DNA of 64,000 nucleotides from Cupriavidus oxalaticus (GTDB lineage: Bacteria > Pseudomonadota > Gammaproteobacteria > Burkholderiales > Burkholderiaceae). Location: NCBI RefSeq assembly GCF_004768545.1, contig NZ_CP038639.1, forward strand, positions 62,001-126,000, written 5' to 3'. Position 1 is the first letter of the stretch. Every line of letters starts with the position of its first letter. Below the pieces are notes generated by a model. That model was given only the letters and a program-made list of their open reading frames with translations. It did no database searches and was not told the DNA's origin. This document shows positions 29,604 through 58,396 of this stretch, in pieces. Position numbers and translations under genes: made by a program.

Positions 29604-30422
29604 TCAGGGCTGGAAGAACTCCCGCAAAGCCTTCGCCACCGCGTCTGGATCGTTCTCCGCCGGGAAATGACACGCATGCGGAATCCGCACTAGCTGCGCG
29701 TGCGGCATCTCCCGCGCGAAGCGTTCGGCATGCCCGATCTGCTGGAACGGGTCGTCTTCGCCCCAGACCAGCAACTTGGGGATCGGCGACTCGCGCAACG
29801 CCGGCACCAATGCCTGCGTATGGCGGTTATCCGCAGCAGCGGCCAGCGCAATCCAGTTCCGCGCCACGCGCGCCTGCAGCCATGGCGCCAGGTATTCCTC
29901 CACCCGCTCTGGCGTCGCCGCGCGGTCGAGGCAGCGCGTGATGGCAGTGCGCCGTGCCGCGACCAGTTCCTCATGCGTGGTGGCGGCGGCTACGGCGGGG
30001 TCGCGGTAGCGCGCCACGGCGGGCACGGGCCACGAGTCATACATCACGGCATTGAGCAGCGCGAGGCGGCTGACACCGAGGTTGCCCTGCACCACCATGT
30101 GCTGCGCGATGCCGCCGCCGATGTCGTGCGCCGCCACCCCGACCGGGCCGGAAAGCCCACGCGCGCGCGCAAACCGTTCCACCCAGGCCGCCAGCGCCGG
30201 GACCGATGCGGTCTCAACCGTCAGTTCGCCTTCGGAGTGCCCGAGTCCGGGCAGGTCCACGGCCACGCAATACAGTCCGGCCGCGGCCACATCGTCCAGC
30301 ACCGGCTGCCATACGCGGCTCCAGAAAGTGCCGTGGATCATCAGCACCACGGGATCGGCCGGATTCCCGGCGCTGAGATAGCTTGTGGCGACGCCGTCAA
30401 CGTCGATCGTCAGTCTTTGCAT
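29604..30422 (-). CDS. Alpha/beta hydrolase with Asp nucleophile (haloalkane dehalogenase/epoxide hydrolase-like)
   Basis: This 272-residue alpha/beta hydrolase has an oxyanion-hole stretch MIHGTFWS and a nucleophile elbow AAHDIGGGIAQ. The Asp in place of Ser is the pattern of haloalkane/haloacetate dehalogenases and epoxide hydrolases. Supporting residues are WGEDDPFQ (acid region) and HACHFPAENDP (His). No signal peptide is seen. It lies about 100 bases downstream of the MHS transporter gene on the same strand and may be part of the same unit with the cupin gene. Confidence 0.85.
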   Translation of the reverse strand: MQRLTIDVDGVATSYLSAGNPADPVVLMIHGTFWSRVWQPVLDDVAAAGLYCVAVDLPGLGHSEGELTVETASVPALAAWVERFARARGLSGPVGVAAHDIGGGIAQHMVVQGNLGVSRLALLNAVMYDSWPVPAVARYRDPAVAAATTHEELVAARRTAITRCLDRAATPERVEEYLAPWLQARVARNWIALAAAADNRHTQALVPALRESPIPKLLVWGEDDPFQQIGHAERFAREMPHAQLVRIPHACHFPAENDPDAVAKALREFFQP

Positions 30423-30523
30423 GTCGTTGCCTCGCTTCTTGAGGTTGAAAAGGATTGTGCTCCGGCTTCGCCGGGAACAACAGGCAGCCCGCAGCGGCGG
30501 CAGCCCGTCCGCGCTTGCGGCGG

Positions 30524-31837
30524 TTAGCGCAGCGGCACGCCGCGTGTTTCCGGCATCTTGCAGAACGTCACCAGGGTGACGAAGGCGCCGCAGCCCACAT
30601 AGAGGAAGAACCAGCCCTCATGCCCGCGCGACGACAGCCACGTCAGCAGGTACGGCGTAGTGCCGCCGATCAGCGCGACCACCAGGTTGTAGGCGGCGCC
30701 GATGCCCACGCCGCGGACCTGCGTATCGAACCACTCGGCCATAATGGACGGCGCGATCGACGCATACAGCGCATACGTCAGCATCCCGAAGCACTCGATC
30801 AGCAGCAGCGTCCGGAAGTCCGCATTGAGCATCGACACGACCGGGTACAGGAACAGCAGATTGGCCAGCGCAAAGGCGATGAGCTGCGGCCGCCGCCCCA
30901 GCCTGTCCGACAGCGCTCCGCACAGCGGCAGCGCCAGCATGAACAGCGCGATGGCGATCGCACTTGCCTGGAAGGCGACCTCGGGCGTGACGCCGCCCTT
31001 GCGCATGGCGTACACCGGCATATAGCTGACAAAGAGGTAGAAGCTGAACGCCGGCAACACGGTGCTGCCCATCAGCCGCAGCATCGCGCCGCGGTGGTGC
31101 TGCCAGACCCAGCCCAACGAGCGCCGGCGGATCTCTCCCGCCGCCTTCAGCCGGGTGAATGCCTGCGTCTCGTCGACGCCGTGACGCAGCCAGAAGCCGA
31201 ACAGCGAGCCGCAGCCGCCGAGGAAGAACGGGATGCGCCAGCCGTATTCATGCAAGGCCTCGGGCGTCATGTAGCGCGTCATCAGCCAGGCCATCCCGGA
31301 CGCCAGCAGCAGCCCGGCGGCGATGCTGAAATACAGGAAGCTGCCATAGAAGCCGCGCCTTGCCGCGGGCGCCGATTCGGTCAGGTAGGTCGTGGCCGCG
31401 CCGTATTCACCGCCAACCGACAGCCCCTGCACCATGCGCGCGACCGTCATCAGCACCGGCGCCCAGATGCCGATCTGCGCATACGTCGGCAGGACCGAGA
31501 TCACGAACGACGAGCCAGCCATCATCATGATGCACAGCGTCAGCGCGCTGCGCCGTCCGTAGCGGTCGGAGAACGCGCCGATCAGCCAGCCGCCCAGCGG
31601 GCGCATGAAGAAGCCGATCGCGAACACGGCAAAAGTGGACAGCAAGGCGGCAGTACTGTCCTGCCCGGGAAAAAACTGCTTGCTGAAATAGACGGCGAAT
31701 ACCGTATAGACCGACCAGTCGAACCATTCGACCGTGTTGCCGATGCTGCCGGCAAAGATGGTCCGCACGGCTGTGCGGCGCGCGGGGGCGCGCGGGGCCT
31801 GTGCCAGGTCCTGCGCCTGGCTGGTCTGCATTTCCAT
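30524..31837 (-). CDS. MFS transporter, metabolite:H+ symporter (MHS) type
   Basis: The start chosen is ATG 31837 with an upstream GGAGAC. The 437-residue protein has the MHS N terminus (SIGNTVEWFDWSVYTVF), the loop-2 signature GGWLIGAFSDRYGRRSAL, a second GEYGAA stretch in helix 5 and about 12 hydrophobic helices. MHS members import organic acids such as alpha-ketoglutarate, shikimate or aromatic acids with protons. It lies between an Asp-nucleophile hydrolase and a cupin dioxygenase, so an aromatic or halogenated acid is a reasonable guess for the substrate. Confidence 0.92.
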   Translation of the reverse strand: MEMQTSQAQDLAQAPRAPARRTAVRTIFAGSIGNTVEWFDWSVYTVFAVYFSKQFFPGQDSTAALLSTFAVFAIGFFMRPLGGWLIGAFSDRYGRRSALTLCIMMMAGSSFVISVLPTYAQIGIWAPVLMTVARMVQGLSVGGEYGAATTYLTESAPAARRGFYGSFLYFSIAAGLLLASGMAWLMTRYMTPEALHEYGWRIPFFLGGCGSLFGFWLRHGVDETQAFTRLKAAGEIRRRSLGWVWQHHRGAMLRLMGSTVLPAFSFYLFVSYMPVYAMRKGGVTPEVAFQASAIAIALFMLALPLCGALSDRLGRRPQLIAFALANLLFLYPVVSMLNADFRTLLLIECFGMLTYALYASIAPSIMAEWFDTQVRGVGIGAAYNLVVALIGGTTPYLLTWLSSRGHEGWFFLYVGCGAFVTLVTFCKMPETRGVPLR

Positions 31838-31963
31838 ATTGTCTCCGCGGGTCGTTGCTCGGGGTCGGCAAGATCCTCTGTGTTGTCGCGCGCGGCCGCC
31901 GCCGCGCGGTGCTGTCGTGATGCCGCAGGGAGGCCTTCGCAATGCCAGGCGGCGATGCGCGCC

Positions 31964-32497
31964 TCAGCGGATCAGCTTGTCGAGGTCGCGCTGGTCCAGG
32001 CCGTTCTCTTCGTAGTGCCGGCGTGCGGCGTCGAGCTTGGTGAAGACATCCTCGTGGCCGATGATGCTGCCGTCCTCGAGATAGATGTAGCCCGCCATGG
32101 CGTGGAACCATGTGACCATTTCCGGCACGTCGTCCGGCACCACCAGCGTATGTGTTTCGCCGGGCGGCTCCATGATGAAGGAGCCTTCGGTGTACATCTC
32201 TTCGTGCTCGAGGTAGAACCAGCGCCCCTTGAGGACCACGGCGTGCACCGCGCCGAAGTGCTTGTGGCAGGACAGCACGCCGGACTTACGGACGCGCAGC
32301 AGATTGACGTAATATCCCTGCGTCACGCCCAGGCACAGCGGCAGGAACGAGACGCCGTCGGCCTGCGGAATCCAGCGGACGTCGTCGATGTCGGTCAGGT
32401 TGCCGAAAAAAATGTCCGGGCGCGCATCGGGCGGCAGCGGATTCACCGCGGCCTGCACGCCACGGGGATTGTGGAATTTGCGCGAATACACTTGCAC
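31964..32497 (-). CDS. Cupin dioxygenase, 2,4'-dihydroxyacetophenone dioxygenase-like
   Basis: The start chosen is GTG 32497 (VQVYSRKFHNP), with GGAG ten bases upstream; the longer frame has no ribosome site. The 177-residue cupin has metal-ligand patterns HKHFGAVH with a following Glu (YLEHEE) and the second-motif His in PPGETHTLVV. This family includes 2,4'-dihydroxyacetophenone dioxygenase and acetylacetone-cleaving enzymes, which cleave a C-C bond using non-haem iron and O2. It is divergent from a LysR gene. Confidence 0.8.
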   Translation of the reverse strand: MQVYSRKFHNPRGVQAAVNPLPPDARPDIFFGNLTDIDDVRWIPQADGVSFLPLCLGVTQGYYVNLLRVRKSGVLSCHKHFGAVHAVVLKGRWFYLEHEEMYTEGSFIMEPPGETHTLVVPDDVPEMVTWFHAMAGYIYLEDGSIIGHEDVFTKLDAARRHYEENGLDQRDLDKLIR

Positions 32498-32682
32498 AGC
32501 GAGCTCCTTTGAGTGGGTACCGGACCCTGTCCAGGCAGGGTTGAGGGCATTGTGTTTCGCGATGACGCCGCGAACCAGCACCGCGGCGGAATAGCCACTG
32601 TGACACGCCGGCACAGTTGCGCTGCCGCAATGCATCGACAATGCCGGCTAACGAGAAGGATGCAGGCAGGGGCAACAGGACC

Positions 32683-33588
32683 GTGGACAGATACTCAGAG
32701 CTCGTCGCATTCCTGCAGTCGGCACGCAGCCACAGCTTTTCCGCGGCTGCCCGCAATCTCGACCTCACGCCGTCGGCGGTCAGCAAGCTGGTGGCGCGAC
32801 TCGAGGCGCGGCTGGGCGTGCGCCTGTTCGTGCGCCAGGGACGCACGGTGGCACTGACCGAAGAGGGCCAGCGCTATCTGTCCAGCGCCGAGATGGTGGT
32901 GGAAGCAATGGCCGATGCCCAAGCGCACGGCGAAGCGCTTGGCGAGACGCTGCGCGGCAAAATCCGCGTCCATACCATGCTGACGTTCGCGCGGCACCAG
33001 ATCGTGCCGTGGTTGCCGGAGTTTTTGCAGGCACACCCGGGACTGTCGGTGGAATTCCATATCGCACCGCAGTATGAAGACGCGTTCGACCGGGGCGTCG
33101 ATATCGCCATCCATAGCGGCGCCCTGCCCAGCTCATCGCGCGTGGCGCGCAAGATCGCGTCGAGCCGGTGGATCGTCTGCGCCGCGCCCGCCTATCTGGA
33201 ACGGCATGGCACCCCGCGGACACCGGACGAGCTGCAGCAACACACCTGCGTCGGCTTCAGCTTTGTCAGCGAATGGAATGTGTGGCCGTTCCGCGCCATG
33301 GACGGCACGACCTACGGCGTGCGGCCGGCCAGCGTGGTCGACACCACGCAGGGCGAGATTGCGCGCGACCTAGCGCTCGGCGGCTTCGGCATCGTGCGCC
33401 TGGCCGAGTTCCATATCGGCGAGGACCTGCTTGCCGGGCGCCTGGTGCCCGTGCTGGAGTCCTACCAGGACCCGTCCAAGGAGCCGCTTTACCTGGTCTA
33501 CCCCAACCGCAAGCATCTGAGCCCGCGCGTCAAGGTCTTCTGCGATTTTCTGACGGAACGGCTGGCGGCACAGCCCTGGGCGCGGTAG
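32683..33588 (+). CDS. LysR-type transcriptional regulator
   Basis: The LysR winged helix starts within VDRYSELVAFLQSARSHSFS and continues AAARNLDLTPSAVSKLVARLE. GTG 32683 is chosen because it gives the usual distance from start to helix; ATG 32641 is an alternative that adds 14 residues. About 301 residues, with a normal effector domain. It is divergent from the cupin gene and is probably the regulator of the cupin-transporter-hydrolase set on the minus strand. Confidence 0.9.
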   Translation: MDRYSELVAFLQSARSHSFSAAARNLDLTPSAVSKLVARLEARLGVRLFVRQGRTVALTEEGQRYLSSAEMVVEAMADAQAHGEALGETLRGKIRVHTMLTFARHQIVPWLPEFLQAHPGLSVEFHIAPQYEDAFDRGVDIAIHSGALPSSSRVARKIASSRWIVCAAPAYLERHGTPRTPDELQQHTCVGFSFVSEWNVWPFRAMDGTTYGVRPASVVDTTQGEIARDLALGGFGIVRLAEFHIGEDLLAGRLVPVLESYQDPSKEPLYLVYPNRKHLSPRVKVFCDFLTERLAAQPWAR

Positions 33589-33600: not shown

Positions 33601-34404
33601 TCACTCCCCGCGCGCCCCCGCCACCCGGTGTGGCGACGCCACCGGCGACTGCAGGTCGAGCTTGGCGGCCTGGTAGCCGCGCCGGAAGTCCTGCACATGT
33701 TTCTCCATCCACGTTTCGGCGGCGGCCTCATCGCCGGCGCGGATCGCGGCAACGATGGCCTTGTGCGCGTCCAGCAGCCGCTTGCCCGCCACCGGCACAC
33801 GTGTCATCACGGCGGCGAACGCCGGATAGAACAGCCGGCTGAGCGGTTCGCGCGCCAGCACCAGCGCGCGGTTGCCGCTCATGCCGGCGACGATGCCATG
33901 GAACTCGATGTCCAGTTCCACCAGGCTGTCCCCAGCCTTCAGTGCCAGTTCGGTCCTGCGCAGGTTGTCGTCCAGCCGCTCCAGCGCTTCGGGCGTGGCG
34001 CGCGCCGCAGCCAGCCGCGCCATCGGCGGTTCCAGCACCGACATCGCCTGCCACAGTTCGTCGAAGACGATCTCGTGCAGCACCAGCGCGCGCTCCAGCT
34101 GTTTGCCGACCTCGGCCTCCGAGGGCCGCGTCACGACCATTTTCTTGGCATGCTCGCGGCGCACCAGGTTGGCCTCCTCCAAAACGCGGATGCCTTCACG
34201 CACGGTGGAGCGGTTGACGCCAAACATCTCGCACAGCTTCGCCTCGGTCGGCAGCGGATCGCCTTCGCGCAGGCTGCCGTCGAGAATGCGTTCGATCATG
34301 GCCTCGGCCAGCACCCGGTAGGCCGGGACGGTGCGGATCTTTTCGAATGCGGCTTCCAACGCAGTGTCCTTGTCTGGGCCGGCGTGTGCACCGGCTGGTC
34401 TCAT
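33601..34404 (-). CDS. GntR-family regulator with FCD domain (FadR subfamily)
   Basis: This 267-residue protein has an N-terminal winged helix (LPTEAKLCEMFGVNRSTVRE, residues about 52-71) followed by an all-helical FCD effector domain with the usual metal-binding Asp/His pattern (VELDIEFHGIVAGMSGN). It is divergent from the receptor-phosphotransferase-ACAD operon starting at 34558. Two TTGTC-N-GAC(C/A)A dyads lie at its own start and at the opposing promoter, which suggests autoregulation and control of that operon by an organic acid or acyl ligand. Confidence 0.93.
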   Translation of the reverse strand: MRPAGAHAGPDKDTALEAAFEKIRTVPAYRVLAEAMIERILDGSLREGDPLPTEAKLCEMFGVNRSTVREGIRVLEEANLVRREHAKKMVVTRPSEAEVGKQLERALVLHEIVFDELWQAMSVLEPPMARLAAARATPEALERLDDNLRRTELALKAGDSLVELDIEFHGIVAGMSGNRALVLAREPLSRLFYPAFAAVMTRVPVAGKRLLDAHKAIVAAIRAGDEAAAETWMEKHVQDFRRGYQAAKLDLQSPVASPHRVAGARGE

Positions 34405-34414
34405 TGTCTGACCA
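34404..34414. promoter_or_regulatory. Putative GntR operator 1
   Basis: TTGTCTGACCA overlaps the GntR start codon and resembles the TTGTC-N-GACAA dyad at 34489-34499. An overlapping dyad GTCTGA-CCA-TCAGAC (34406-34420) is also perfect. FadR-type GntR proteins bind short dyads of this kind. Inference. Confidence 0.5.
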
Positions 34415-34458
34415 TCAGACTATTCAATCACTTCCCCGCTGTCAAATCTCGCCAGCGC

Positions 34459-34499
34459 TTGACAACGGAAAAGTGGCTGCTATTCTGATTGTCAGACAA
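34459..34499 (+). promoter_or_regulatory. Sigma-70-like promoter with GntR operator 2
   Basis: TTGACA (34459-34464) is followed after 16 bases by TATTCT (34481-34486). The perfect dyad TTGTC-A-GACAA occupies 34489-34499, right at the expected transcription start. A repressor bound there would block the operon that begins at 34558. Confidence 0.6.
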
Positions 34500-34557
34500 A
34501 CCGACAGAATTTCGGTCCACACCCACCGGCCGCTATAACGGCCAGGAGAGGAGACAA

Positions 34558-35805
34558 ATGCAACGCAAACCACTCACCACGGCGGTGGCGTGGGCGCTGG
34601 CGCTCGCCATGCCGCCCGCGCTGGCGCAAAAGGCTGCCACGCCGCCCGCCCCTTCATCCGCGATTTCCGAGCAAGAGGTGCGCATCGGCGTCCTCACCGA
34701 CCTGTCGGGGATCTACTCCGACCTGTCCGGCTCGGGCTCCGTGCTGGCCGCGAAAATGGCGGTGGAAGACTTCAAGGCCAGCGCCAGGCCATCGTTCGCG
34801 ATCCGCCTGGTTTCGGCCGACCACCAGAACAAGCCCGACATCGCATCGACCAAGGCGCGCGCGTGGTTCGACGAGGACAAGGTCGACATGATCGTCGACC
34901 TGCCCGCGTCCTCGGCGTCGCTGGCCGCGGTCAAGCTGGCCAGGGAAAAGCAGCGGCTCGTGATCGTGTCCAGCGGTGCCTCGACGCGCATCACCAACGA
35001 GGACTGCACCCCCACGGCACTGCACTGGACCTACGACACCTATGCGCTCGCGACCGGCACCGCCCGCGCCGTGCTCAAGCGCGGCGGCGACAGCTGGTAC
35101 TTCATCACCGCCGACTACGCCGGCGGCCGCGCGCTGGAGAAAGACGCATCCGAGGTGGTTATCGCCGGCGGCGGCAAGGTCGTCGGGCGCTCGACGCACC
35201 CGTTCCCCGGCTCGGACTTCTCGTCCTACCTGCTGGCGGCGCAGGCCTCCAGGGCCAAGGTGATCGCGCTGGCCAATGCCGGCAACGACACCACCAACAC
35301 CATCAAGCAGGCGGCGGACTTCGGCATCACGCGCAAGCAGACCATGGCCGCGACGCTGATGTTCATCACCGACGTGCACAGCCTTGGCCTCGACAAGGCG
35401 CAGGGCATGTTCCTGACGGAAGGCTTCTACTGGGACCTGGACGAGCAGACCCGCGCATGGTCCAGGCGCTTCCATGCGGTGCAGAAGCGCATGCCGACAA
35501 TGGCGCAGGCAGGCGTCTACTCCGCGGTGCTGCATTACCTGAAGTCAGTGCAGGCCGCGGGCAGCGACGATTCGATGACCGTGGTGAAGAAGATGCGCGA
35601 GCTGCCCGTCGCCGACATGTTCGCTCGCAATGGCAAGCTGCGCGAAGACGGACGCATGGTGCACGACATGTACCTGCTGCAAGTGAAGGCGCCCGCCGAG
35701 TCGAAGTACCCATGGGACTACTACCACGTGCGGCAGGTCATCCCCGGCGACCAGGCCTTCCTGCCGCTCGCCCGATCGACCTGCGCCGGCGCGCGCAAGG
35801 AGTAA
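34558..35805 (+). CDS. ABC transporter substrate-binding protein, branched-chain amino acid/LivK type
   Basis: This 415-residue protein starts at ATG 34558 after AGGAGAGGAGACAA. It has a signal peptide (TTAVAWALALAMPPALAQ) and a Peripla_BP_6 fold beginning VRIGVLTDLSGIYSDLSGSG, with the typical IVDLPASSASLAAVKLA and SSYLLAAQASRAKVIALANAG blocks. It would bind an acid or amide in the periplasm. No LivHMGF permease or ATPase genes are nearby, so it must borrow a transporter or act as a sensor. It is the first gene of the GntR-controlled operon. Confidence 0.9.
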   Translation: MQRKPLTTAVAWALALAMPPALAQKAATPPAPSSAISEQEVRIGVLTDLSGIYSDLSGSGSVLAAKMAVEDFKASARPSFAIRLVSADHQNKPDIASTKARAWFDEDKVDMIVDLPASSASLAAVKLAREKQRLVIVSSGASTRITNEDCTPTALHWTYDTYALATGTARAVLKRGGDSWYFITADYAGGRALEKDASEVVIAGGGKVVGRSTHPFPGSDFSSYLLAAQASRAKVIALANAGNDTTNTIKQAADFGITRKQTMAATLMFITDVHSLGLDKAQGMFLTEGFYWDLDEQTRAWSRRFHAVQKRMPTMAQAGVYSAVLHYLKSVQAAGSDDSMTVVKKMRELPVADMFARNGKLREDGRMVHDMYLLQVKAPAESKYPWDYYHVRQVIPGDQAFLPLARSTCAGARKE

Positions 35806-35809
35806 GGCC

Positions 35810-36919
35810 GTGGCGACGACCCTCCCGGCCACGCCGCGCCCACCAATGCAAGCGGATACGGAACTGGCCGGCTTCCGTCCGCGCAGCCAGTCCGTGCCGC
35901 TCGACTGGGCCCGGCTGCGCCGGTATCTCGCGGGACTCGGCCACCAGCTTGACCTGTCGGAGATGCCGAGGCAGTTTGCCGGCGGCCTGGCGAACCTGAA
36001 CTACCTGATCCGCCTGGACGGGCAGCCATGCGTGCTGCGGCGCCCCCCTCCCGGCCCGCTGCCGCCCGGCGCCAACGACATGGCGCGCGAGCACCGCGTG
36101 CTCAGCAGCCGGCTGTGGCTGCGCTTCCCGCAGGCGCCGCGCAGCCTGTTGTACTGCGTCGATCCCGATGTGCTGGGCGCGCATTTCCTGGTGATGGAAT
36201 ACCGCCCGGGCCTGACCATCGGCGCCGACCTGCCGCAGTGGCTGGACAGCCGCGTCGCCGGTCCGCGGCTTGCCCGCACGCTGGTCGACCTGCTGGTGCA
36301 GCTGCACGGCACCGACGCCGCCGAGGTCGGCCTGGATCACCTGGGCAAGCCCGAAGGCTTCCTGTCCCGCGCGATCGAAGGCTGGACGCGCCGCGCCGAA
36401 GCCCTCGGCGGCGCGGCGCCCCGCATCGCCGTGCGCGAGCTGTCGCAGTGGCTGCGCGCGCATTGCCCGCCTGACGCCAGGCCGACGCTGCTGCACTGCG
36501 ACTTCAAGCTCGACAACATCGTGCTCGATCCCGAAACCCTGCGCCCGCGCGCCGTGCTGGACTGGGACATGGCCACGCGTGGCCATCCGCTGTTCGACCT
36601 GGCCACGCTGCTCAGCTACTGGACCGAGCCGGGCGACCCCGAGGCCGTGCGCGAACTGCGCCAGATGCCAACCACTGCGCCCGGTTTCCCGTCGCGCGCG
36701 GAAGTCGTCGAAGCCTATCGCCGCAGCACCGGCTGCGACCTGTCGGACCTGCCGTTCCATCGCGTGCTGGCAATGTTCAAGCTCGGCGTGGTGTTCCTGC
36801 AGTTGCATGCGCGCTATCTCGCAGGCGCCACCACCGAGCCCCGCTATGCCCGCTTCGGCCACATCGGCCAATCGATCCTGGATTTCACGCACGACATCGC
36901 GCGCGGACGCGCGAGCTAA
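35810..36919 (+). CDS. APH-family phosphotransferase (ACAD10/LvaA-like hydroxyacyl-CoA kinase candidate)
   Basis: This 369-residue aminoglycoside-phosphotransferase-fold kinase starts at GTG 35810, five bases after the previous stop. It keeps the catalytic loop LLHCDFKLDNIVLD (HxDxxxxN, near residue 226) and the metal Asp in VLDWDMATRGHPLFD. Homologues paired with acyl-CoA dehydrogenases (ACAD10/11 in animals, LvaA in Pseudomonas putida levulinate catabolism) phosphorylate 4-hydroxyacyl-CoA so that it can be converted to an enoyl- or 3-hydroxyacyl-CoA. The gene next door is such a dehydrogenase, which supports this role; antibiotic resistance is unlikely. Confidence 0.87.
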   Translation: MATTLPATPRPPMQADTELAGFRPRSQSVPLDWARLRRYLAGLGHQLDLSEMPRQFAGGLANLNYLIRLDGQPCVLRRPPPGPLPPGANDMAREHRVLSSRLWLRFPQAPRSLLYCVDPDVLGAHFLVMEYRPGLTIGADLPQWLDSRVAGPRLARTLVDLLVQLHGTDAAEVGLDHLGKPEGFLSRAIEGWTRRAEALGGAAPRIAVRELSQWLRAHCPPDARPTLLHCDFKLDNIVLDPETLRPRAVLDWDMATRGHPLFDLATLLSYWTEPGDPEAVRELRQMPTTAPGFPSRAEVVEAYRRSTGCDLSDLPFHRVLAMFKLGVVFLQLHARYLAGATTEPRYARFGHIGQSILDFTHDIARGRAS

Positions 36920-36955
36920 GGCGGACACCCCATCCGCAATATGGAGACAAGCCAG

Positions 36956-38127
<1,172 letters not shown>

Positions 38128-38128
<1 letters not shown>

Positions 38129-38901
38129 TGACCAACCATGCAACGCTGTTCGACCTGCGCGGCAAGGTTGCGGTGGTGACCGGCGGCGGCCGCGGCATCG
38201 GCCGCGCGATCGCGCAAGCGCTGGCGGCACACGGCGCCGCGGTGGCGGTCTGCGGACGCACCGCCGGCACGCTGGCCGACGTGACCGACACCATCACCAT
38301 CCAGGGCGCCCAGGCGCTGGCGGTCACCGCCGACGTGGCCAGCGACGACGAGATCCGACGCCTGCGCGAAACAGTGCTCGACCGCTTCGGGCAGATCGAC
38401 ATCCTCGTCAACAACGCCGGCATCGATCCGCACTATGCTTCAATGGAGCACACCACCGCGGCGGAATGGCACCAGATCCTGGACGTGAACCTGAGCGGCG
38501 TCTATCGCTGCTGCCGGGAGCTGGGCGCCGCCATGCTGCCGCGCCGCCAGGGCGCGATCATCAACATCAGCTCCATCGCCGGGCATATCGGACTGAAGCG
38601 GCAGGTGCCTTATGCGGCCTCCAAGGGAGGCGTGGAGCAACTGACCAGGGCGCTGGCCCACGACTGGGCCGAGCATGGCATCCGCGTCAACGCCATTGCC
38701 TACGGCTTCGTGCAGACCGACCTGACCGCCGGCGTGGTCGCGCATCCGCATATCGGCGCGAAGCTACTGTCGCGGATCCCGATGGGCCGCTTCGGCAACC
38801 TGGACGACGTGCCGGGCGCGGCGGTGTTCCTGGCCTCGCCGGCTGCCGCGTATGTCACCGGCCACAGCCTGCTGGTGGACGGCGGCTGGACCGCCACCTG
38901 A
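38128..38901 (+). CDS. Classical SDR oxidoreductase
   Basis: This 257-residue classical SDR starts at ATG 38128, overlapping the dehydrogenase stop as TGATG. It has TGGGRGIGRAIAQAL, ILVNNAGIDPHY, the active-site serine in INISSIAGHIG and YAASKGGVEQLTRAL (YxxxK), and ends LLVDGGWTAT. Probable role: oxidation of a 3-hydroxyacyl intermediate produced after the kinase/dehydrogenase steps, comparable in position to LvaD of the levulinate pathway. Confidence 0.9.
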
Positions 38902-38921
38902 CAAACCTCTGCGAGACCGCC

Positions 38922-40100
38922 ATGACCTCCGCGCTGGAAGGACTGAAGATTCTGGACCTGACCCGGCTGCTGCCCGGTGCGTTCTGCACGCAGCTGCTTG
39001 CCGACTACGGCGCCGACGTGCTCAAGATCGAGCAACCCGGGCAAGGCGACTACAACCGGCAGTTCGCCCCGATCCACAAGCAGGAATCGGGGTCGTTCCT
39101 GCTGCTCAACCGCAACAAGCGCAGCCTGACGCTAGATTTGAAGGCGCCCGAGGGCAAGGAGGTGTTCCTGCGGCTCGCGCGCGAGGCCGACGTCGTGGTG
39201 GAGGGTTTCCGCCCCGGCGTGATGGAGCGCCTGGGGCTGCATTACGATGTGCTGGCCGCAGCCAATCCGCGCCTGGTGTACTGCGCGATCTCCGGCTACG
39301 GCCAGGACGGTCCGCGCGCACAGGCGGCGGGGCACGATCTCAACTACATGGCGCTGACCGGTGCGCTGCAGCTGTTCGGCACGCCCGAAACCGGGCCGAT
39401 CGTGCCGGGGTTGTCGATCGCCGACGTCGGCGGGGGTTCGCTGATGGCGGCGGTCGGCATCCTGACCGCGCTGTCGGCGCGCGGTGCCAGCGGACGCGGC
39501 CAGTTCGTCGACATTGCCATGACCGACGGTCTGGTGAGCTGGCTGTGCTACCACGCGGCGGACCACCTGTTCGGGGGCGTGGAGCCGCGCGGCGGCGAGC
39601 GGCCTTTCATCGGCCAGGCGCCCTGCTACAACGTCTATCGCTGCGCCGATGGCCGTCACCTCTCGCTCGGCATCATCGAGGCGCACTTCTGGCACCGCTT
39701 CTGCGACCTGATCGCCCGCCCGGACTTCAAGCCGATGCAATGGCCGAGCGGCGAAGAGGCCCTGCTGCAGAAGGCTGTCCTGACCTCGGTCTTCGGTGCC
39801 GAGGCACGCGATACGTGGGTCGAGCGCCTGGCGCAGGCTGACATCCCGGCCAGCCCCGTCAACGCCATGGCCGAGGCCTTCGACGATCCGCAGCTGCGCC
39901 ACCGCGACATGCTGCAGTACCTGGACCATCCGGTCGAAGGTCGCATCCCGCAACTGGGCTTCCCGATCAAGTTCTCGGCGTCGCCTGGCAGCATCAGGCT
40001 GCCGCCGCCGCGGCTGGGCGAGCACAACGAATCCGTGCTTGCCGGACTCGGCTATTCCGCCGATGAAGTCGCTCGTCTGCGCGAACGCGCGGTGATCTAG
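38922..40100 (+). CDS. CaiB/BaiF CoA-transferase family protein (AMACR-like residues)
   Basis: This 392-residue class III CoA-transferase-fold protein starts MTSALEGLKILDLTRLLPG. It carries AAGHDLNYMALTGAL and LSIADVGGGSLMAAVG, so both His and Asp of alpha-methylacyl-CoA racemases are present. It could transfer CoA to a dicarboxylate or racemise a branched acyl-CoA. It lies between the SDR (20-base gap) and CoA ligase genes in the GntR-controlled operon. This gene is not part of the known lva operon. Confidence 0.88.
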   Translation: MTSALEGLKILDLTRLLPGAFCTQLLADYGADVLKIEQPGQGDYNRQFAPIHKQESGSFLLLNRNKRSLTLDLKAPEGKEVFLRLAREADVVVEGFRPGVMERLGLHYDVLAAANPRLVYCAISGYGQDGPRAQAAGHDLNYMALTGALQLFGTPETGPIVPGLSIADVGGGSLMAAVGILTALSARGASGRGQFVDIAMTDGLVSWLCYHAADHLFGGVEPRGGERPFIGQAPCYNVYRCADGRHLSLGIIEAHFWHRFCDLIARPDFKPMQWPSGEEALLQKAVLTSVFGAEARDTWVERLAQADIPASPVNAMAEAFDDPQLRHRDMLQYLDHPVEGRIPQLGFPIKFSASPGSIRLPPPRLGEHNESVLAGLGYSADEVARLRERAVI

Positions 40101-40162
40101 CGCAGATTCTTTACCTGATGCCAATGCAGGCGGCGCCATCGCAGCGCCGCAGGAGACAAGAC

Positions 40163-41794
40163 ATGCCCGACCCGATGACGGCCTACGCCTACACCTACGA
40201 GCGCTTCCGCTGGTGCCTGCCAGCAAGCTTCAATTTCGGCCGTGACGTGGTGGACGCTCACGCACGGCTGCAGCCCGGCAAGCTCGCGTTGCTGTGGTGC
40301 GATCACACCGGCGCCGAGCGCCGCTATACCTTCGGCGACTTGCGCACCCTGACGAACCGCTGCGCCAACCTGCTGGCCGGCGCAGGCGTGCGCCGCGGCG
40401 ACCGCGTGATCATCATGCTGCCGCGCATTCCGCACTGGCAGATCGCGATGATCGCCTGCCTCAAGCTGGGCGCGGTGCCGATCCCCTGCATCGAGATGCT
40501 GACGGCCAAGGACGTCGGCTACCGCATCGGCCATGCCGGCGCGACCGCCGTGATCGCGCATCGCGACAGCATCGGCAAGTTCGACGGCATCCATGGCATT
40601 GGCACCCGCATTGCCGTGGGCGGCGCCCCGGACTGGCTCGACTTCGACGCGGCGCTTGCCGGCTGCAGCGACGAGTTCACCTGCGCCGACCTGGCGCCGG
40701 ACGAGCCGGCCATCCTCTACTACACGTCCGGCTCCACCGGCAATCCCAAGGGCGTACTGCACGCAACCCGCGCGCTCTACAGCTGGCGCGTGTCGGCCAG
40801 CCACTGGCAGGGCCTGCGCGCCGACGACCTGATGTGGTGCACTGCGGATACCGGCTGGAGCAAGGCCGGCACCAGCATCTTGTTCGGGCCATGGTCGGCG
40901 GGTACCGCCGTGCTGTTCTACAACGGCCCGTTCGACCCGGCCGAACGGCTGGCGCTGATCGCGCGCCACGGAGTCACCGTGTTCTGCGGCGCCGCGACGG
41001 AGTTCCGCCACCTCGTCAACGCGCGCTTCGCCGACTACGATCTGAGCCGGCTGCGGCTGGCCGTTTCGGCGGGCGAAGCGGTCAACCCGGAGGTGGTGCG
41101 CCGCTGGTGCGAGGCCACCGGCGTGGAACTGCGCGAAGGCTACGGGCAGACCGAAACGCTGATGACAGTGGTCAATCCACCGGGCGTGCCCACGCGTGCC
41201 GGCTCGATGGGGTTGCCGCTGCCGGGTTCGGTGCTGGCGATCCTGGATGAGCAGGGGCGCCCGCTGCCCGCCGGCTCCAGTGGCCAGCTTGCACTGCGGC
41301 TGCCGCATCCGCAGGTGATGCTCGGCTACTGGAACGACCCCGCCCTGACCGCCACGACCCGCGCACAGCATGAAGGCACCGAATATTTTCTGACCGGCGA
41401 CCTGGCGCATGCCGATACCGACGGCTACCTGTACTACGACGGTCGCAGCGACGACATCATCAGCTCGGCCGGCTATCGCATCGGCCCGATGGAGGTGGAG
41501 AACGCGCTGATCGAGCATCCGGCGGTGCTGGAATGCGCGGTGGTGGGCAGCCCCGACGCGGAGCGCGGCGAGATCGTCAAGGCCTTCGTCACGCTGCGGC
41601 GGGGCTTCACGGCGGACGATGCGTTGGCGCGCGCGCTGCAGGACCATGTCAAGCAGGTCACGGCACCCTACAAATATCCGCGCGCGATCGCCTTCGTCGA
41701 CGCCTTGCCCAAGACTGCCAGCGGCAAGCTGATGCGGCGCCTGCTGCGCGATCGCGAATACGCGGCGCACAGTGCGCCCGGCCAGCGCGCATGA
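40163..41794 (+). CDS. AMP-forming acyl-CoA synthetase (benzoate-CoA ligase-like clan)
   Basis: ATG 40163 is preceded by AGGAGACAAG. The 543-residue ligase has YYTSGSTGNPKGVLH near residue 190, GYGQTET near residue 330, YFLTGDLAHAD and DDIISSAGYRIGPMEVE, and the C-terminal catalytic Lys in TASGKLMRR. The N terminus (FNFGRDVVDAHA) is like that of benzoate-CoA and medium-chain acyl-CoA ligases. It probably activates the acid substrate of the operon, comparable to LvaE. Confidence 0.92.
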   Translation: MPDPMTAYAYTYERFRWCLPASFNFGRDVVDAHARLQPGKLALLWCDHTGAERRYTFGDLRTLTNRCANLLAGAGVRRGDRVIIMLPRIPHWQIAMIACLKLGAVPIPCIEMLTAKDVGYRIGHAGATAVIAHRDSIGKFDGIHGIGTRIAVGGAPDWLDFDAALAGCSDEFTCADLAPDEPAILYYTSGSTGNPKGVLHATRALYSWRVSASHWQGLRADDLMWCTADTGWSKAGTSILFGPWSAGTAVLFYNGPFDPAERLALIARHGVTVFCGAATEFRHLVNARFADYDLSRLRLAVSAGEAVNPEVVRRWCEATGVELREGYGQTETLMTVVNPPGVPTRAGSMGLPLPGSVLAILDEQGRPLPAGSSGQLALRLPHPQVMLGYWNDPALTATTRAQHEGTEYFLTGDLAHADTDGYLYYDGRSDDIISSAGYRIGPMEVENALIEHPAVLECAVVGSPDAERGEIVKAFVTLRRGFTADDALARALQDHVKQVTAPYKYPRAIAFVDALPKTASGKLMRRLLRDREYAAHSAPGQRA

Positions 41795-41821
41795 AAAAAT
41801 CCCCCCGCAATCCCCGGAGTC

Positions 41822-42991
41822 ATGATGCCAGTCGGAACCTACCGCTACCTGCCGCTTGAACGCGTGCATTTCGGCCGCCCCGCCGCGCAAGTGCTGGCCG
41901 AGGAGGCCAGCCAGCGTGGCGCCACGCGCGTGTTCGTGGTCAGCAGCCGCACCCTGAACCGCACCACCAGCGCAGTGAGCGGCGCCACCGCCGGCCTGCG
42001 CGACAAGCTGGTCGGCCTGTTCGATGCCTGCGTCGAACACGTGCCGCGCGACGCCGTGATGGCCTTGGCCGGCGCGATGCGCGAGGCGCGTCCCGACCTG
42101 GTCGTCACCATCGGCGGTGGCACCGCCATCGATACCGTCAAGGTCGCGCTGGCTTGCCTGGCGCAGGACGTGCGCACGGCCGCCGCCATGGATGCCATTC
42201 GCGTGCGGGTCGATGCCGCCGGGCAGCCGCAGGTGCCACAGATCCCTGCGCCGCCGTGCCGGCAGATCGCAGTGCCAACCACGCTGTCGGCGGCGGAGTT
42301 CAGCGACCTGGCCGGCTGCACCGACTCCCTCAGCGGCAGCAAGCATCATGTCACCGCGAATGGCATCGGGCCAGCCAGCGTGATCCTGGATCCGGCAATC
42401 ACGTTGCATACGCCATCGCAGCTCTGGCTGTCCACCGGCATCCGTGCGATCGACCATGCGGTGGAATCGGTCTGCTCGGTCGATGCGCAAGCCATGACGG
42501 ACGCCACCTGCCTGCACGGACTGGCACTACTGGTCGCCGCCTTGCGCCGACACCGCGAAGATCCGGCGGACCATGCGGCACGCCTGGACTGCCAGCTTGG
42601 TGTCTGGCTTTGCGCCAGCGGCGTCAACCGCGTACGCTACGGCGCCAGCCATGGGATCGGGCACGTGCTGGGCGGCGCCCTCGGCGTTCCGCACGGCATC
42701 ACCTCGTGCGTGCTGCTGCCGGCGGTGATGCGCTACAACCTCGGGGTGACGGCGCCGGCGCAACGGGCCGTGGCGCGCGCGCTGGGACATGAGGGAGCCG
42801 ACGCGGCTGGACTGGTGTCCGCGCTGATCCATGACCTGGGCTTGCCGACGCGGCTGCGGGAACTCGACATCGGGCCAGCGCAGTTCGAAACCCTGGCACA
42901 GCTGGCGCTGGAGAACCAATGGGTGCGCGCCAACCCGCGTCGCATCGACCGCGCCCAGCAGGTGGTCGATATTTTGCAGTCGGCCTGGTGA
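41822..42991 (+). CDS. Iron-containing alcohol dehydrogenase family (maleylacetate reductase-like)
   Basis: This 389-residue group III dehydrogenase has VVTIGGGTAIDTVKVALACLA near residue 96, TTLSAAEFSDLAG, GIRAIDHAVESV, and YGASHGIGHVLGGALGVPHG with the metal His residues. The N terminus YRYLPLERVHFG resembles maleylacetate reductase. It is the last gene of the island operon, 27 bases after the ligase. It could oxidise a 4-hydroxyacid or its aldehyde or reduce an oxoacid. A second ATG at 41825 is an equally possible start. Confidence 0.9.
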   Translation: MMPVGTYRYLPLERVHFGRPAAQVLAEEASQRGATRVFVVSSRTLNRTTSAVSGATAGLRDKLVGLFDACVEHVPRDAVMALAGAMREARPDLVVTIGGGTAIDTVKVALACLAQDVRTAAAMDAIRVRVDAAGQPQVPQIPAPPCRQIAVPTTLSAAEFSDLAGCTDSLSGSKHHVTANGIGPASVILDPAITLHTPSQLWLSTGIRAIDHAVESVCSVDAQAMTDATCLHGLALLVAALRRHREDPADHAARLDCQLGVWLCASGVNRVRYGASHGIGHVLGGALGVPHGITSCVLLPAVMRYNLGVTAPAQRAVARALGHEGADAAGLVSALIHDLGLPTRLRELDIGPAQFETLAQLALENQWVRANPRRIDRAQQVVDILQSAW

Positions 42992-43345: not shown

Positions 43346-43928
43346 TTATTGGTTGGAGGACGCTGCCAAGATCCAGCGTCTATGTAAAGTTACTTTTGCC
43401 TGTCCCCGCAAATGCATGCGTACGAGGGTGTAGGCGGCCATGCTCAGGACAACATCTGGTCGACTCGCTTCAGTCCACGCACCATCACCTGACGCATGCG
43501 TCTGACTGTCTTGACCCAGCCAAAGCCTTGTTCGATCAGCTTGCTGTCGGCTATCGTTAAGCATGATCTTGACTGCATCGGCTCGACGTGTGCGTCAGCA
43601 GTGCTCACCATGGCGCTCGTCGTCGCGGTCGCTGCCATCATTGCGAACAAAGCTCTTGCGCCTGCCCAAGCTCGGATCAGCGAACCGTCCACGCAAAAGT
43701 GCTCGCCCGACAGCCAGTTCTGGGGCGAAAACCGGATGCTGTAGGGCACCTGCAGCAACATCGCCTTTGGAACTTTCTCCGGCGCGATGCTCGGACGACC
43801 GCCCTTGATGTCAGCCTCATACATCCTCCAGAACGAGGCCGGTTCATCTTCGCTAAGGCCTGATTGACCATGGTGCGGATCGAGCGCAGCGGGAGGTTCT
43901 TTGTAACGAAATCGTCCAGCCGTCGCAT
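43346..43928 (-). pseudogene. IS5-family transposase remnant, internally deleted
   Basis: On the minus strand the pieces of an IS5-type transposase occur in order over several frames: LPLRSIRTMVNQALAKMN, KGGRPSIAPEKVPKAMLLQV, then directly LSGEHFCVDGSLIRAWAG, then FGWVKTVRRMRQVMVRGLKR and LSMAAYTLVRM at the end. The stretch that should separate QVPYSIR from LSGEHF, about 100 residues in intact transposases, is missing, and two frameshifts are evident. It is a dead element bordering the GC-rich island. Confidence 0.75.
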
Positions 43929-44054
43929 GATGAACAGGCGTTCGGTAAAGGTGTATGAGGCGCGCCTGCGATGTGGGAATTTGATTCGTGTCGAATTCTC
44001 AGATCATGCTTCGACATGTCCATACGCTGACTTGTGGTCGAGGTACTTCAGCAG

Positions 44055-44930
44055 CTAGGGCTCTTTTGCGCTGCTCTCGAGCAGCGCCTCAGTCAGCATC
44101 GTGATCAGCGGCTCCGTCATCGGCTGCATCGCAGGGTTGCCACTGATCACTGACACCTCCACCGTTGGCAGAGATGGCCAATGCGTCGATGGGGAAAGGA
44201 TGCGCATGCCTTCCTGTACAAACGACTTGCCGAGCACTGTCACACCCAACCCTCCGAGTACGGCTGCTTGGACTCCGCCAAGACTGCTAGCGGTGCAGGC
44301 GGCCACCCAGTCGCGCTGCACGTCCCTGAGAACGTCCGTCATGATCTCGCGGTAGGCGCATGGCGGCCGCATCATGACAAGCCGGGCTGGGCGGCGAGGG
44401 TCGGGGCGGTGATCGACGGCCGCCAGCCAGACCAGAGGTTCTCGCCAAATCACGCGTCCACGGGCCGTGGCTCCTCCATTCCTCGCCTTGGCGATCACCA
44501 CATCGAGCAAGCCGGACTCGTATTCTGTCAGCAAGCCTTGGGTCGAGCTTGTGCTTAGTTCGATCTGCACATCGGGATATTGCTGACGGAAGCGGGAAAG
44601 CAACGACGGCAGTTGCGTCCGCACAAGGTTCTCGGAAATGCCCAACCGAAAAAGGGCAGGTTTGGGCGCTTCCCGTACCTCTTGCAAAAATGAGTTGTAG
44701 TGACCAAGCAAACGCTTTGCCGCAACGAGAATCCGCTCTCCGTCGCGCGTAAGGACCAGGGAGCGGCTGGAGCGCTCGAAGACGCGTAACCCTAGTGCGT
44801 CTTCGAGTCGCAATAGCTTCTGACTGACCGCAGACTGCGAGCGACCGATGATGCCCGCAGCAGCGGTGAAACTCCCGGCCTCGGCGACCGCCACGAATGC
44901 TCTCAGCAGATCAGGTTCGACATCATGCAT
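44055..44930 (-). CDS. LysR-type transcriptional regulator
   Basis: This 291-residue protein begins MHDVEPDLLRAFVAVAEAGSFTAAAGIIGRSQSAVSQKLLRLE and has a normal effector domain. It is divergent from the SnoaL-like/DUF2798 pair, with an inverted repeat in the gap, and is probably their regulator. The N-terminal helix-turn-helix is complete and the frame intact. Confidence 0.92.
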   Translation of the reverse strand: MHDVEPDLLRAFVAVAEAGSFTAAAGIIGRSQSAVSQKLLRLEDALGLRVFERSSRSLVLTRDGERILVAAKRLLGHYNSFLQEVREAPKPALFRLGISENLVRTQLPSLLSRFRQQYPDVQIELSTSSTQGLLTEYESGLLDVVIAKARNGGATARGRVIWREPLVWLAAVDHRPDPRRPARLVMMRPPCAYREIMTDVLRDVQRDWVAACTASSLGGVQAAVLGGLGVTVLGKSFVQEGMRILSPSTHWPSLPTVEVSVISGNPAMQPMTEPLITMLTEALLESSAKEP

Positions 44931-44947
44931 AGTGCATCAAGCAGTTT

Positions 44948-44977
44948 AACGAATGGATGCAAGAAACATTATTCGTT
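44948..44977. promoter_or_regulatory. Inverted repeat in LysR/SnoaL divergent gap
   Basis: AACGAAT (44948-44954) and ATTCGTT (44971-44977) form a 7-bp dyad with a 16-base centre between the divergent genes. It is a reasonable LysR binding site candidate. Confidence 0.4.
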
Positions 44978-45047
44978 TGTCTTCTTGATTGCAAGTGCCA
45001 ATAATCGGTACACCAACAAATCAACCATTGTTCTGGAGAATGATGTG

Positions 45048-45467
45048 ATGTGCCGCAGAGATTCAATTGCCGTTGTTGAAAACTTCTGGCGTCAGGTATG
45101 GCAAGCGAGGAACCCCGATGCGATCGATGATCTAGTTGCTGAAGACTTCGTCATTACGTCTGGCGGCGTCGAGATCCGCTCGCGACCCCAGTTCAAGCGA
45201 TGGGTGGCGGCCTTTCTTGAGAGCATTGAAGATTTCCGCTTCGAAGTTATCGAGACGTTCCAAAATGAAAGCGGTGATCGAGTGGTGTCGCGCTGGCTCG
45301 TTAGTGGCAGGAACAACGGCTTTATGGGCTCGTCGCCATGCCAGTCACCGATCCGCATGACCGGCACCGCCGTGCTGCATGTAGGCGAGGATGGATTGAT
45401 ACAGCACAACTGGGTCGAGCGTAGCGCGCTGGAAGTCCATCGCAGCCTGTCTGGCGTAACCGTTTGA
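45048..45467 (+). CDS. SnoaL-like / NTF2-fold protein
   Basis: ATG 45048 follows a GGAG; the longer upstream frame covers the regulatory gap and is unlikely to be translated. The 139-residue protein has a cone-like NTF2 fold pattern: VVENFWRQVWQARNPDAIDD then LVAEDFVI, a central FRFEVIETFQNESGDRVVSRW and a C-terminal sheet GTAVLHVGEDGLIQHNWVE. SnoaL-like proteins act as small cyclases, isomerases or hydrolases, and the substrate here is unknown. It is coupled closely to a DUF2798 membrane protein. Confidence 0.8.
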   Translation: MCRRDSIAVVENFWRQVWQARNPDAIDDLVAEDFVITSGGVEIRSRPQFKRWVAAFLESIEDFRFEVIETFQNESGDRVVSRWLVSGRNNGFMGSSPCQSPIRMTGTAVLHVGEDGLIQHNWVERSALEVHRSLSGVTV

Positions 45468-45472
45468 CCGAC

Positions 45473-45697
45473 ATGTCTGGCATCCCACGGCGATACGGCC
45501 ATTTGGTGTTCGGCGCGATCCAATCTGCCATCAGTTGCGCCATTACTGCTGCAATCGCCAATGAGCCCTTTCTGGCGAGCGGTACTTTCATCTCGCACTG
45601 GCTGAACGCCTACGTCGTGTCGTGGGCCCTCATACTGCCAATCGTGCTGCTGGTCGCGCCCTCCATTCGACGTGCCGTCAATGTGCTAACGCGCTAG
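45473..45697 (+). CDS. DUF2798 small membrane protein
   Basis: This 74-residue protein (ATG 45473, 5 bases after the SnoaL stop) begins MSGIPRRYGHLVFGAIQSAI and has two hydrophobic segments (SAISCAITAAIA and VVSWALILPIVLLVAPSI). This is the DUF2798 pattern of two transmembrane helices with a basic N terminus and a C-terminal IRR-V-LTR. Function unknown. Such genes often sit beside transcription regulators. Confidence 0.75.
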   Translation: MSGIPRRYGHLVFGAIQSAISCAITAAIANEPFLASGTFISHWLNAYVVSWALILPIVLLVAPSIRRAVNVLTR

Positions 45698-46551
45698 GCC
45701 TCCGGCTGCCGCAGCTGCGCGAAAACGCTTCGCCGGCGCAGCCCGAAGCGGAGCTGTCGTCGGATGCGCGCTGATGTCGACCTTCAGACTGTACGTCGAG
45801 ATCGGGAGGAATCTCAGAAATTGACGTCGTCCGTCGCTCGCCTGTGGCGTTGTCGTAGCTGAGCAGTCCTGCTTCACCGCCCGCAGCCTCTACGGGGTGT
45901 ACCTCTACCGTATTCCGCCTGCTCCACAAGTTCCACGCGCCACGGGGTACTTTCGCTCGCCGCGAGGGTGCTTCTAGCGGCGCCCTGGTCTCGGTCGTGC
46001 GTGTTACTGCGGGTCTACGAGCAGTGAGTAGTAACGCCGTTCACGCACCCGGAATTTCAAGCTCACCGTTTGGATGCGCTCCGCGCATTCCTGAGAGATC
46101 GTCGCGTTGACGCTGCGACCCTGCCCAAAAACAACGGAGCTCCAAGAAAGGCGAAAGCCAAACATGGTCGAATGAAACGCAGCAAAATATGAACTTTTTC
46201 TTCGGCTAGCAAGATAGCTTTATTTCTGCGGCCGGTAAAGCGCAATTCTTCTTCAAGCTGAAACACAATGTCACATTTCGCGAATTTCCGTTCCACATGA
46301 TGGCATCCGCGACATTTCCAGGAGGCTCTTCATGACTGCCGTGCAATTGCTCGGAGAGCCTTACAACTAAAGGCACACCGCTGTATAGCGCAACGATTGC
46401 GTTTTTCTCAAGCAAGAGCCACAAATTCTCGCTTGTCAAGCCAGGTGCAATACTTAAGACTGGCACTGTACCCGACAAACTCTGACGCTATAGCTGGTCA
46501 TGAGATCGTCGGTGCCACGGATCGATCAGATTAACTAGGGACGGGGCGTGC
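45698..46551. other. 854-base gap without an intact gene
   Basis: No frame here has convincing coding character. Only one stretch (46338-46478, minus) hints at a decayed gene, listed separately. Base composition is lower in GC than the island at 29.6-43 kb. I see no transposase sequence. Confidence 0.6.
46338..46478 (-). pseudogene. Possible type I asparaginase fragment
   Basis: The minus frame reads VPVLSIAPGLTSENLWLLLE and then, after a gap, GVPLVVRLSEQLHG. These resemble two conserved C-terminal blocks of type I asparaginases (VxxLxIxPGLxxE and GVPVVxxSQCLHG) that are normally about 25-30 residues further apart. The match is short, so this is only a suggestion. Confidence 0.25.
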
Positions 46552-48009: not shown

Positions 48010-48119
48010 CAGCCATCTTAGATACCATTCAATATACCTACAACTCCCCATCAAGCAGCGGGGCGCATTTTGCTACACGGCCCGCATATCGCGGCGACCA
48101 ATGCATTAAGAACAGACGA

Positions 48120-48545: not shown

Positions 48546-48679
48546 CGGCTTTATTCCACCGTCAGGCTATGCCGTTCCCAACTTTCGCCGACATCAACAT
48601 AGAGGAGATGGCTTTCAGGATAAGTTGCATAGGCCAAACGCTCTTCCTACGTTCATACCTGCACTTCTTAAGTCCTACA

Positions 48680-52900: not shown

Positions 52901-52915
52901 ACAGACCTCCTAACT

Positions 52916-58376: not shown

Positions 58377-58396
58377 GTTGTCTCCTTTTGTAGTGA

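Follow-up and report, generated by a model that had tools for sequence, protein, structure and literature searches.

A probable variant operon of the levulinate and ACAD10/11 kind, with its own regulator and candidate operator, in Cupriavidus oxalaticus

The DNA analyzed here, called the window, is a 64,000-nucleotide stretch of Cupriavidus oxalaticus (NZ_CP038639.1, positions 62,001 to 126,000) on a 403-kb contig of an 8.0-Mb genome, and our subject is an operon of eight genes at window positions 33601 to 42991. The operon probably encodes an inducible pathway in which a short, perhaps alpha-methyl-branched 4-hydroxy or 4-oxo acid would be turned into its CoA ester, phosphorylated at the 4-position and, by elimination of the phosphate, delivered into beta-oxidation. 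Judged from its genes, it appears to be a variant of the levulinate or ACAD10-11 kind, with an acyl-CoA dehydrogenase (ACAD) of a sister subfamily, its own kinase clade, regulator and operator, and an additional racemase-like protein and Fe-type alcohol dehydrogenase (Fe-ADH). An original prediction, made from the letters of the window, had proposed the same chemistry; our results partly support it, in that the chemistry seems right, partly for a wrong reason. Phosphorylation and elimination acting on 4-hydroxyacyl-CoA is a recent assignment for mammalian ACAD10/11, dating from 2024-2025 (PMC11342911, PMC12440821). Its presence in this operon is supported by the active-site residues and clade of the dehydrogenase, the relatives and residues of the kinase, and a gene order that has been kept.

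Residues and trees of the dehydrogenase and the kinase

The two proteins that would carry out this chemistry are neighbors:

35810 to 36919, plus strand: kinase of the aminoglycoside phosphotransferase (APH) fold, proposed 4-hydroxyacyl-CoA kinase (profile and structure matches, residues, tree)
36941 to 38128, plus strand: HCMR-type (class III) ACAD, proposed 4-phosphoacyl-CoA phosphate-eliminating enzyme (motif, alignment, tree)
37688 to 37723, plus strand: codons of R250-x7-H258-C-M-R261, the phosphate-binding cluster (alignment to 2wbi and 8v3u; role from PMC12440821)
38063 to 38065, plus strand: codon of D375, Asp at the catalytic position, which is Glu in the ordinary ACAD 1ukw (alignment)

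In mouse ACAD11, cryo-EM and mutagenesis indicate that R626, H634 and R637 of the HCMR motif hold the 4-phosphate near the catalytic D753, and changing these three residues to Ala or Leu was most disruptive for phosphate elimination (PMC12440821). R250, H258-C-M-R261 and D375 of the window ACAD align with R626, H634-R637 and D753, so that both enzymes have Asp where the plain ACAD 1ukw has Glu. The R-x7-HCMR...DG pattern is found at the expected spacing in 63 of the 83 kinase loci (1,323,524 bases) that form our related-locus set, in which all counts include near-copies from Cupriavidus and are not counts of independent events; in 61 of them, alpha-, beta- and gammaproteobacterial loci included, it lies directly beside the kinase, and in two at a longer gap.

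Three classes of HCMR dehydrogenase can be told apart by a pair of motifs: class I (GRIHHCMR / LADGPDE), class II (ARLSHCMR / IYDGPTE) and class III (ARLTHCMR / IYDGPSE), the last including the window ACAD. ACAD11 is class I by sequence, scoring 489 bits against the host genome's class I protein, and LvaC of the lva operon would be placed there by its reported identity of 56-62% to ACAD11 and ACAD10 (PMC11342911). The original prediction had read IYDGPSEVHR as the motif of the ACAD10/11 group, but ACAD11 reads LADGPDEVH and IYDGPSE marks class III; the features in common are the Asp and R-x7-HCMR. In a maximum-likelihood tree of 49 rows (23 of the 71 class III rows, hand-picked for spread, and 18 motif-less rows drawn at random from those long enough) all HCMR ACADs form one clade (100/98), in which classes II and III part from class I (100/100) and class II nests among class III. 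By its phosphate cluster, catalytic Asp and clade, the window ACAD would belong with the 4-phosphoacyl-CoA-eliminating ACADs of the ACAD10/11/LvaC type, as had been predicted for the pair. Orthology with ACAD10/11 is ruled out by its 201 bits to ACAD11, against 489 for the genome's class I protein, and by the separate sister subfamily (100/100). The gene, previously placed at 36956-38128, has a possible start at ATG 36941, 36956 being the next ATG.

The kinase motif HxDxxxxN is intact, as had been noted, and reads HCDFKLDN (H229, D231, N236). Among solved structures it is closest to 9o56 (237 bits; labelled simply "aminoglycoside phosphotransferase") and then to the kinase domain of ACAD11 (142 bits); the seven solved sequences matched at E <=0.001 include neither a choline nor a homoserine kinase. 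D231, N236 and R187 align with the catalytic and CoA-contact residues D220, N225 and R176 of mouse ACAD11 and are invariant in all 27 rows of the kinase alignment; R93-E94 resembles the R86 described beside the helix-C Glu, an Arg that a direct count places at 84 in the mouse protein. In the kinase tree (56 of 117 matches; row L050 is a long, doubtful branch, and the L015 kinase, cut to 22 residues by a script frame slip, stands outside both kinase trees) the window kinase groups with the kinases found at class I, class II and DUF6285 loci and has its own clade (90/99). Four other APH kinases of the genome fall outside: a homoserine kinase (over cut-off), an AmgK-like, an SrkA-like and a PRK06148-like one. 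A homoserine-type, AmgK-like or SrkA-like identity is rejected by the tree, at weak root support (77/50). As to the grouping with choline or homoserine kinases that had earlier been named as a reason for doubt, the homoserine kinase lies outside the clade across that same root, while the tree covers no choline kinases. We propose, from the catalytic Asp and Asn and the CoA-contact Arg, that the protein is a 4-hydroxyacyl-CoA kinase of the ACAD10 type.

Gene order and related loci

Seven genes on one strand (34558-42991) encode a binding protein, the APH kinase, the ACAD, a short-chain dehydrogenase (SDR), a CaiB protein, an AMP-forming ligase and an Fe-ADH, and a GntR/FCD gene diverges from them; every gene originally described in this tight operon is present in the order and on the strand stated. 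The remaining members of the run are:

34558 to 35805, plus strand: periplasmic binding protein of the branched-chain-amino-acid type (PF13458, 347 bits; PDB 3i09, 408 bits)
38128 to 38901, plus strand: short-chain dehydrogenase, proposed to interconvert 4-oxo- and 4-hydroxyacyl-CoA (an LvaD-like role) or to act in a later 3-hydroxyacyl step
38922 to 40100, plus strand: CaiB/BaiF protein with racemase-type His, Asp and Glu (GHDLNY, ADVGGGS, IIEAHF; PF02515, alignment)
40118 to 41794, plus strand: AMP-forming acyl-CoA ligase (best NCBIfam model MbcS, 487 bits, below its 850 cut-off)
41822 to 42991, plus strand: Fe-type alcohol dehydrogenase (lactaldehyde reductase and 4-hydroxybutyrate dehydrogenase models, all below cut-off)

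By coordinates, the gaps are 4 bases between receptor and kinase, 21 between kinase and ACAD, an overlap of 1 between ACAD and SDR, 20 between SDR and CaiB, 17 between CaiB and ligase, and 27, the largest, between ligase and Fe-ADH. Since no internal gap exceeds 27 bases, the operon has no space for an LvaB-like gene, in agreement with the variant gene set first proposed (CaiB, Fe-ADH and ABC-type receptor present, LvaB-like gene absent). The eight genes include neither a permease nor an ATPase gene.

Four other Cupriavidus loci have the order kinase-ACAD-SDR-CaiB-ligase, and so do Hydrogenophaga, two Azospirillum species and Oceanibaculum; a Rhizorhabdus metagenome-assembled genome keeps it as far as CaiB. 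The Azospirillum and Oceanibaculum proteins are 52-67% identical to those of the window, and because the order is kept at such identity, chance linkage is unlikely. Smaller sets occur as kinase-ACAD-ligase without CaiB in Bradyrhizobium and others, and as kinase-ACAD-SDR alone in many Acetobacteraceae. The operon is unevenly distributed across Cupriavidus (kinase at >=63% identity in 4 of 35 other Cupriavidus genomes); C. necator A5-1 is one strain with the operon, and strain P-10 carries the kinase on megaplasmid pMTS1.

Related genes also occur in other arrangements. Elsewhere in the host genome, one locus (L141, C1:2217000-2235000) has a class II HCMR ACAD, with nothing that matches the kinases across its 18-kb stretch; another (L143, C2:1036000-1053000) has a class I, ACAD11-like ACAD some 10 kb from an APH kinase (L112). 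Class II loci of other Cupriavidus (L023, L025, L027) resemble the operon in that an HCMR ACAD nesting among class III adjoins an APH kinase and an SDR, but their kinases are 54-57% identical to L112 and lie outside the window kinase clade. Four loci (L049, L059, L060, L105) have related kinases without an HCMR ACAD, beside an MmgE/PrpD protein, a CaiB relative (30-32%) and an ordinary dehydrogenase (28-30%).

Around the operon, conserved neighbors lie upstream (29604-33588): a hydrolase (29604-30422, minus strand), an MFS protein (30524-31942, minus), a ChrR-type cupin (31964-32641, minus) and a LysR protein (32617-33588, plus). A short transposase-like open reading frame (ORF) follows at 43444-43824 (by eye), and G+C falls from 0.686 in the operon to 0.545-0.565 in 44001-60000; these two observations place the operon at the border of a different DNA segment.

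Regulator and operator

The gap between the GntR and receptor genes holds a 19-base inverted repeat built on the palindrome TTGTCNGACAA, a candidate operator that is new in this analysis:

33601 to 34404, minus strand: GntR/FCD-family regulator (Pfam GntR and FCD; ortholog in 14 of the 83 loci, travels with the operon)
34404 to 34414, no strand: operator copy 1, TTGTCTGACCA, one mismatch to TTGTCNGACAA, arm of the 19-nt inverted repeat with copy 2
34459 to 34486, plus strand: promoter-like TTGACA-N16-TATTCT before copy 2 (by eye; kept in L029, L032 and L037)
34489 to 34499, no strand: operator copy 2, exact TTGTCAGACAA (palindrome search)

The palindrome has 17 exact copies in the related-locus set, compared with 0, 0, 0, 1 and 0 in five shuffles of two-base blocks. 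All 17 are intergenic, a status that rests on approximate ORF calls, and lie at most 324 bases from a kinase, receptor or GntR start. At up to one mismatch there are 55 copies against 13-23 in the shuffles, and many of those with one mismatch fall inside genes and resemble background. Each of the 14 loci with a GntR ortholog has a site near these genes at up to one mismatch (exact in 11), while among the 69 loci without an ortholog an exact site occurs only in L092. The GntR protein would bind TTGTCNGACAA, and since an exact copy directly follows the TTGACA-N16-TATTCT promoter, the layout is that expected of repression. The receptor ORF as called from TTG 34489 would begin within operator copy 2; the likely start is ATG 34558, downstream of AGGAGAGGAG and followed by a signal-peptide-like stretch (by eye).

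A further exact copy, TTGTCGGACAA, is found at window positions 11772-11782, flanked on one side by a receptor-type ORF (10773-11759, by eye) and on the other by a cluster whose products are a 521-aa protein, a CoA ligase (13640-15244) and a CaiB-like protein (15348-16499). This site may belong to the same regulon, or be due to chance.

Proposed pathway, its substrate and the alternatives

In the proposed pathway, each reaction, the substrate and the repression are what we infer from the gene set, diagnostic residues, clade, linkage and operator read in the sequence. The ligase would convert the acid to its CoA ester, the SDR and/or the Fe-ADH would bring the 4-position to an alcohol, and the kinase would phosphorylate the 4-hydroxyl of the acyl-CoA. 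The bound FAD of the class III ACAD would then expel the phosphate, giving a 2-enoyl-CoA with no net oxidation, which the general beta-oxidation enzymes of the genome would break down further. The role of the racemase-like CaiB is probably to set right an alpha-methyl (or other alpha-substituent) center, and the GntR protein would repress from the TTGTCNGACAA sites as long as neither the acid nor its CoA ester is available. The LvaD- and LvaE-like roles first suggested for SDR and ligase agree with this scheme.

Several results weigh against this reading, and it should be held with some caution. No complete HCMR ACAD was found in 20 of the 83 kinase loci; in four of these (L043, L071, L078, L092) the sequence stops inside the kinase or no more than about 1 kb past it, but the other 16 are real absences from the fetched stretch, and our confidence is slightly lowered because contig ends do not explain them. 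One row on the class I branch (L017) is without the R-x7-HCMR motif. The window ACAD scores 201 bits against ACAD11 and 202 against the plain ACAD 1ukw, compared with 489 for the genome's own class I enzyme. The root that parts these kinases from other APH kinases is weak (77/50), and the lva operon was compared through published descriptions, with LvaA and LvaC outside the trees and alignments. Finally, a related CaiB occurs in only nine loci, and propionate genes in one of 83, a locus (L047) that is without the CaiB. As a separate observation, the motif-less L017 ACAD, from another Cupriavidus (G026), keeps the Asp (LADGPTEVH) and adjoins an APH kinase.

Four weak clues, none of them decisive, suggest that the substrate is a short acid, perhaps alpha-methylated: the CaiB residues, the ligase nearest to MbcS (which we take to be a branched short-acid ligase), the type of the Fe-ADH, and the prp genes. 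The racemase His, Asp and Glu are kept in all nine related CaiB proteins when aligned with MCR chains, whose residues are presumably numbered H126, D156 and E241; the AMACR-like character on which a branched substrate had been argued finds some backing in these residues, but the overall score (211 bits to a CoA-transferase, 206 to racemases) does not tell the two apart. For the dicarboxylic substrate offered in the same prediction, nothing was found in its favor. Bradyrhizobium tropiciagri (L047:1458-8433) has prpD, prpC and prpB (2-methylcitrate dehydratase, 2-methylcitrate synthase and methylisocitrate lyase; prpD just below cut-off) near its operon, and genes related to the window's hydrolase (60%) and cupin (51%) lie there too, which would suit a route that begins by opening an ester or lactone and yields propionyl-CoA. 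A propionyl-CoA product fits because of these 2-methylcitrate genes; as a general companion of the operon they are rejected (1 of 83 loci). A nitroreductase (7 of 83) and a thiolase (>=62% identity, 9 of 83) are further companions, neither of them in the window operon.

The lva operon of Pseudomonas putida, reportedly described by Rand et al. in 2017, likewise unites an APH kinase, an ACAD, an SDR and an acyl-CoA ligase, with a proposed 4-phosphoacyl-CoA intermediate, but the window operon is without LvaB or LvaF/G among its eight genes and adds CaiB, Fe-ADH and the periplasmic receptor. LvaB we take to be DUF6285, which has no match in the host genome at E <=0.01 and occurs in 4 of 185 genomes of the class sample, beside kinases of a separate divergent branch. 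One such locus (L153, G235:C1:1124000-1140000) has it beside a divergent APH kinase and an HCMR ACAD of intermediate type (GRIFHCMR, IYDGPDEVH), and DUF6285 may be an LvaB-like kinase partner. The regulators differ (GntR/FCD against the sigma54-dependent LvaR; PMC6692424), and the window ACAD lies in a subfamily sister to the class of ACAD11 and, by reported identity, LvaC (PMC11342911). Mammalian ACAD10/ACAD11 also combine kinase and ACAD, with R-x7-HCMR and the catalytic Asp conserved, whereas in the window the two are separate proteins and the ACAD is a distant sister. The levulinate cluster of Pseudomonas citronellolis LA18T has kinase, ACAD and SDR and is also without LvaB; its ACAD, 78% identical to LvaC, would be class I, and no CaiB or Fe-ADH is named in the excerpt (PMC6692424). 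Hence the absence of LvaB stands as predicted, but not as a sign of another substrate.

These likenesses make a second levulinate or 4-hydroxyvalerate operon, with the substrate of lva and with CaiB and Fe-ADH as accessories, the strongest alternative, although a doubtful one. The enzyme classes match LvaA, C, D and E; LvaE has a preference for C4-C6 acids, a levulinate cluster without LvaB is on record (PMC6692424), and the propionyl-CoA disposal genes of L047 would suit 4-hydroxyvalerate as well. A His_Phos_1 gene (L036:11999-12700; same cluster in L100) near an Azospirillum operon has a counterpart in the P. citronellolis cluster, a histidine phosphatase (PMC6692424), and the two may share a role. 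Conversely, the genome already has a class I ACAD and, some 10 kb from it, a kinase related to those that adjoin class I ACADs; it is not obvious what a racemase-type CaiB would do with 4-hydroxyvalerate, and the regulator is not of the LvaR type.

It is rather unlikely that the kinase-ACAD pair serves a ring or polycyclic substrate, such as a terpenoid or steroid fragment whose hydroxyl would lie gamma to the CoA ester after side-chain shortening. In Pseudoduganella (L051, L091) the pair lies in a gene cluster, common to the two loci, that also encodes Rieske oxygenases, a Fer2 protein and a ligase and may serve a terpenoid or some other ring compound, and in Acetobacteraceae loci, L056 for example, it stands alongside genes for biotin carboxylase, carboxyltransferase and ACAD; however, the ligase of window-type operons is closest to a short branched-acid model, and none of the window operon's eight genes encodes an oxygenase. 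An ordinary beta-oxidation operon, with an unrelated small-molecule kinase and a meaningless HCMR motif, would account for the equal similarity of the ACAD to plain ACAD and ACAD11, but it is very improbable given the 61 of 83 loci, among them alpha-, beta- and gammaproteobacterial ones, where kinase and HCMR ACAD adjoin, the change of Glu to Asp together with R-x7-HCMR, and the single clade with class I.

Among the matches listed in the open-licence literature, taken by title and start of abstract, no paper describes the class III operon, and the excerpt of an RB-TnSeq paper (PMC12543098) has no match to kinase, phosphotransferase or 4-hydroxy. A more specific form of the phosphorylate-and-eliminate pathway is speculative and improbable as it stands: class III could be a GntR-controlled route for alpha-methyl-branched 4-hydroxy acids, derived from alpha-methyl-gamma-lactones or from the methylbutenolide ring of strigolactones. 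The racemase would set the alpha-methyl center, kinase and ACAD would convert 4-hydroxy-2-methylbutanoyl-CoA to tiglyl-CoA, and the isoleucine route would yield propionyl-CoA and acetyl-CoA. If true, this would link soil and root bacteria to the breakdown of plant butenolide signals.

In conclusion, the operon would represent a divergent second branch in bacteria, one that retains the active-site signature and has a regulator, a racemase-like protein and a receptor of its own. The conserved operator offers a direct handle on it, insofar as the substrate would follow once the inducer is found. The range of substrates open to phosphorylation and elimination on 4-hydroxyacyl-CoA may extend beyond the straight-chain 4-hydroxy acids.

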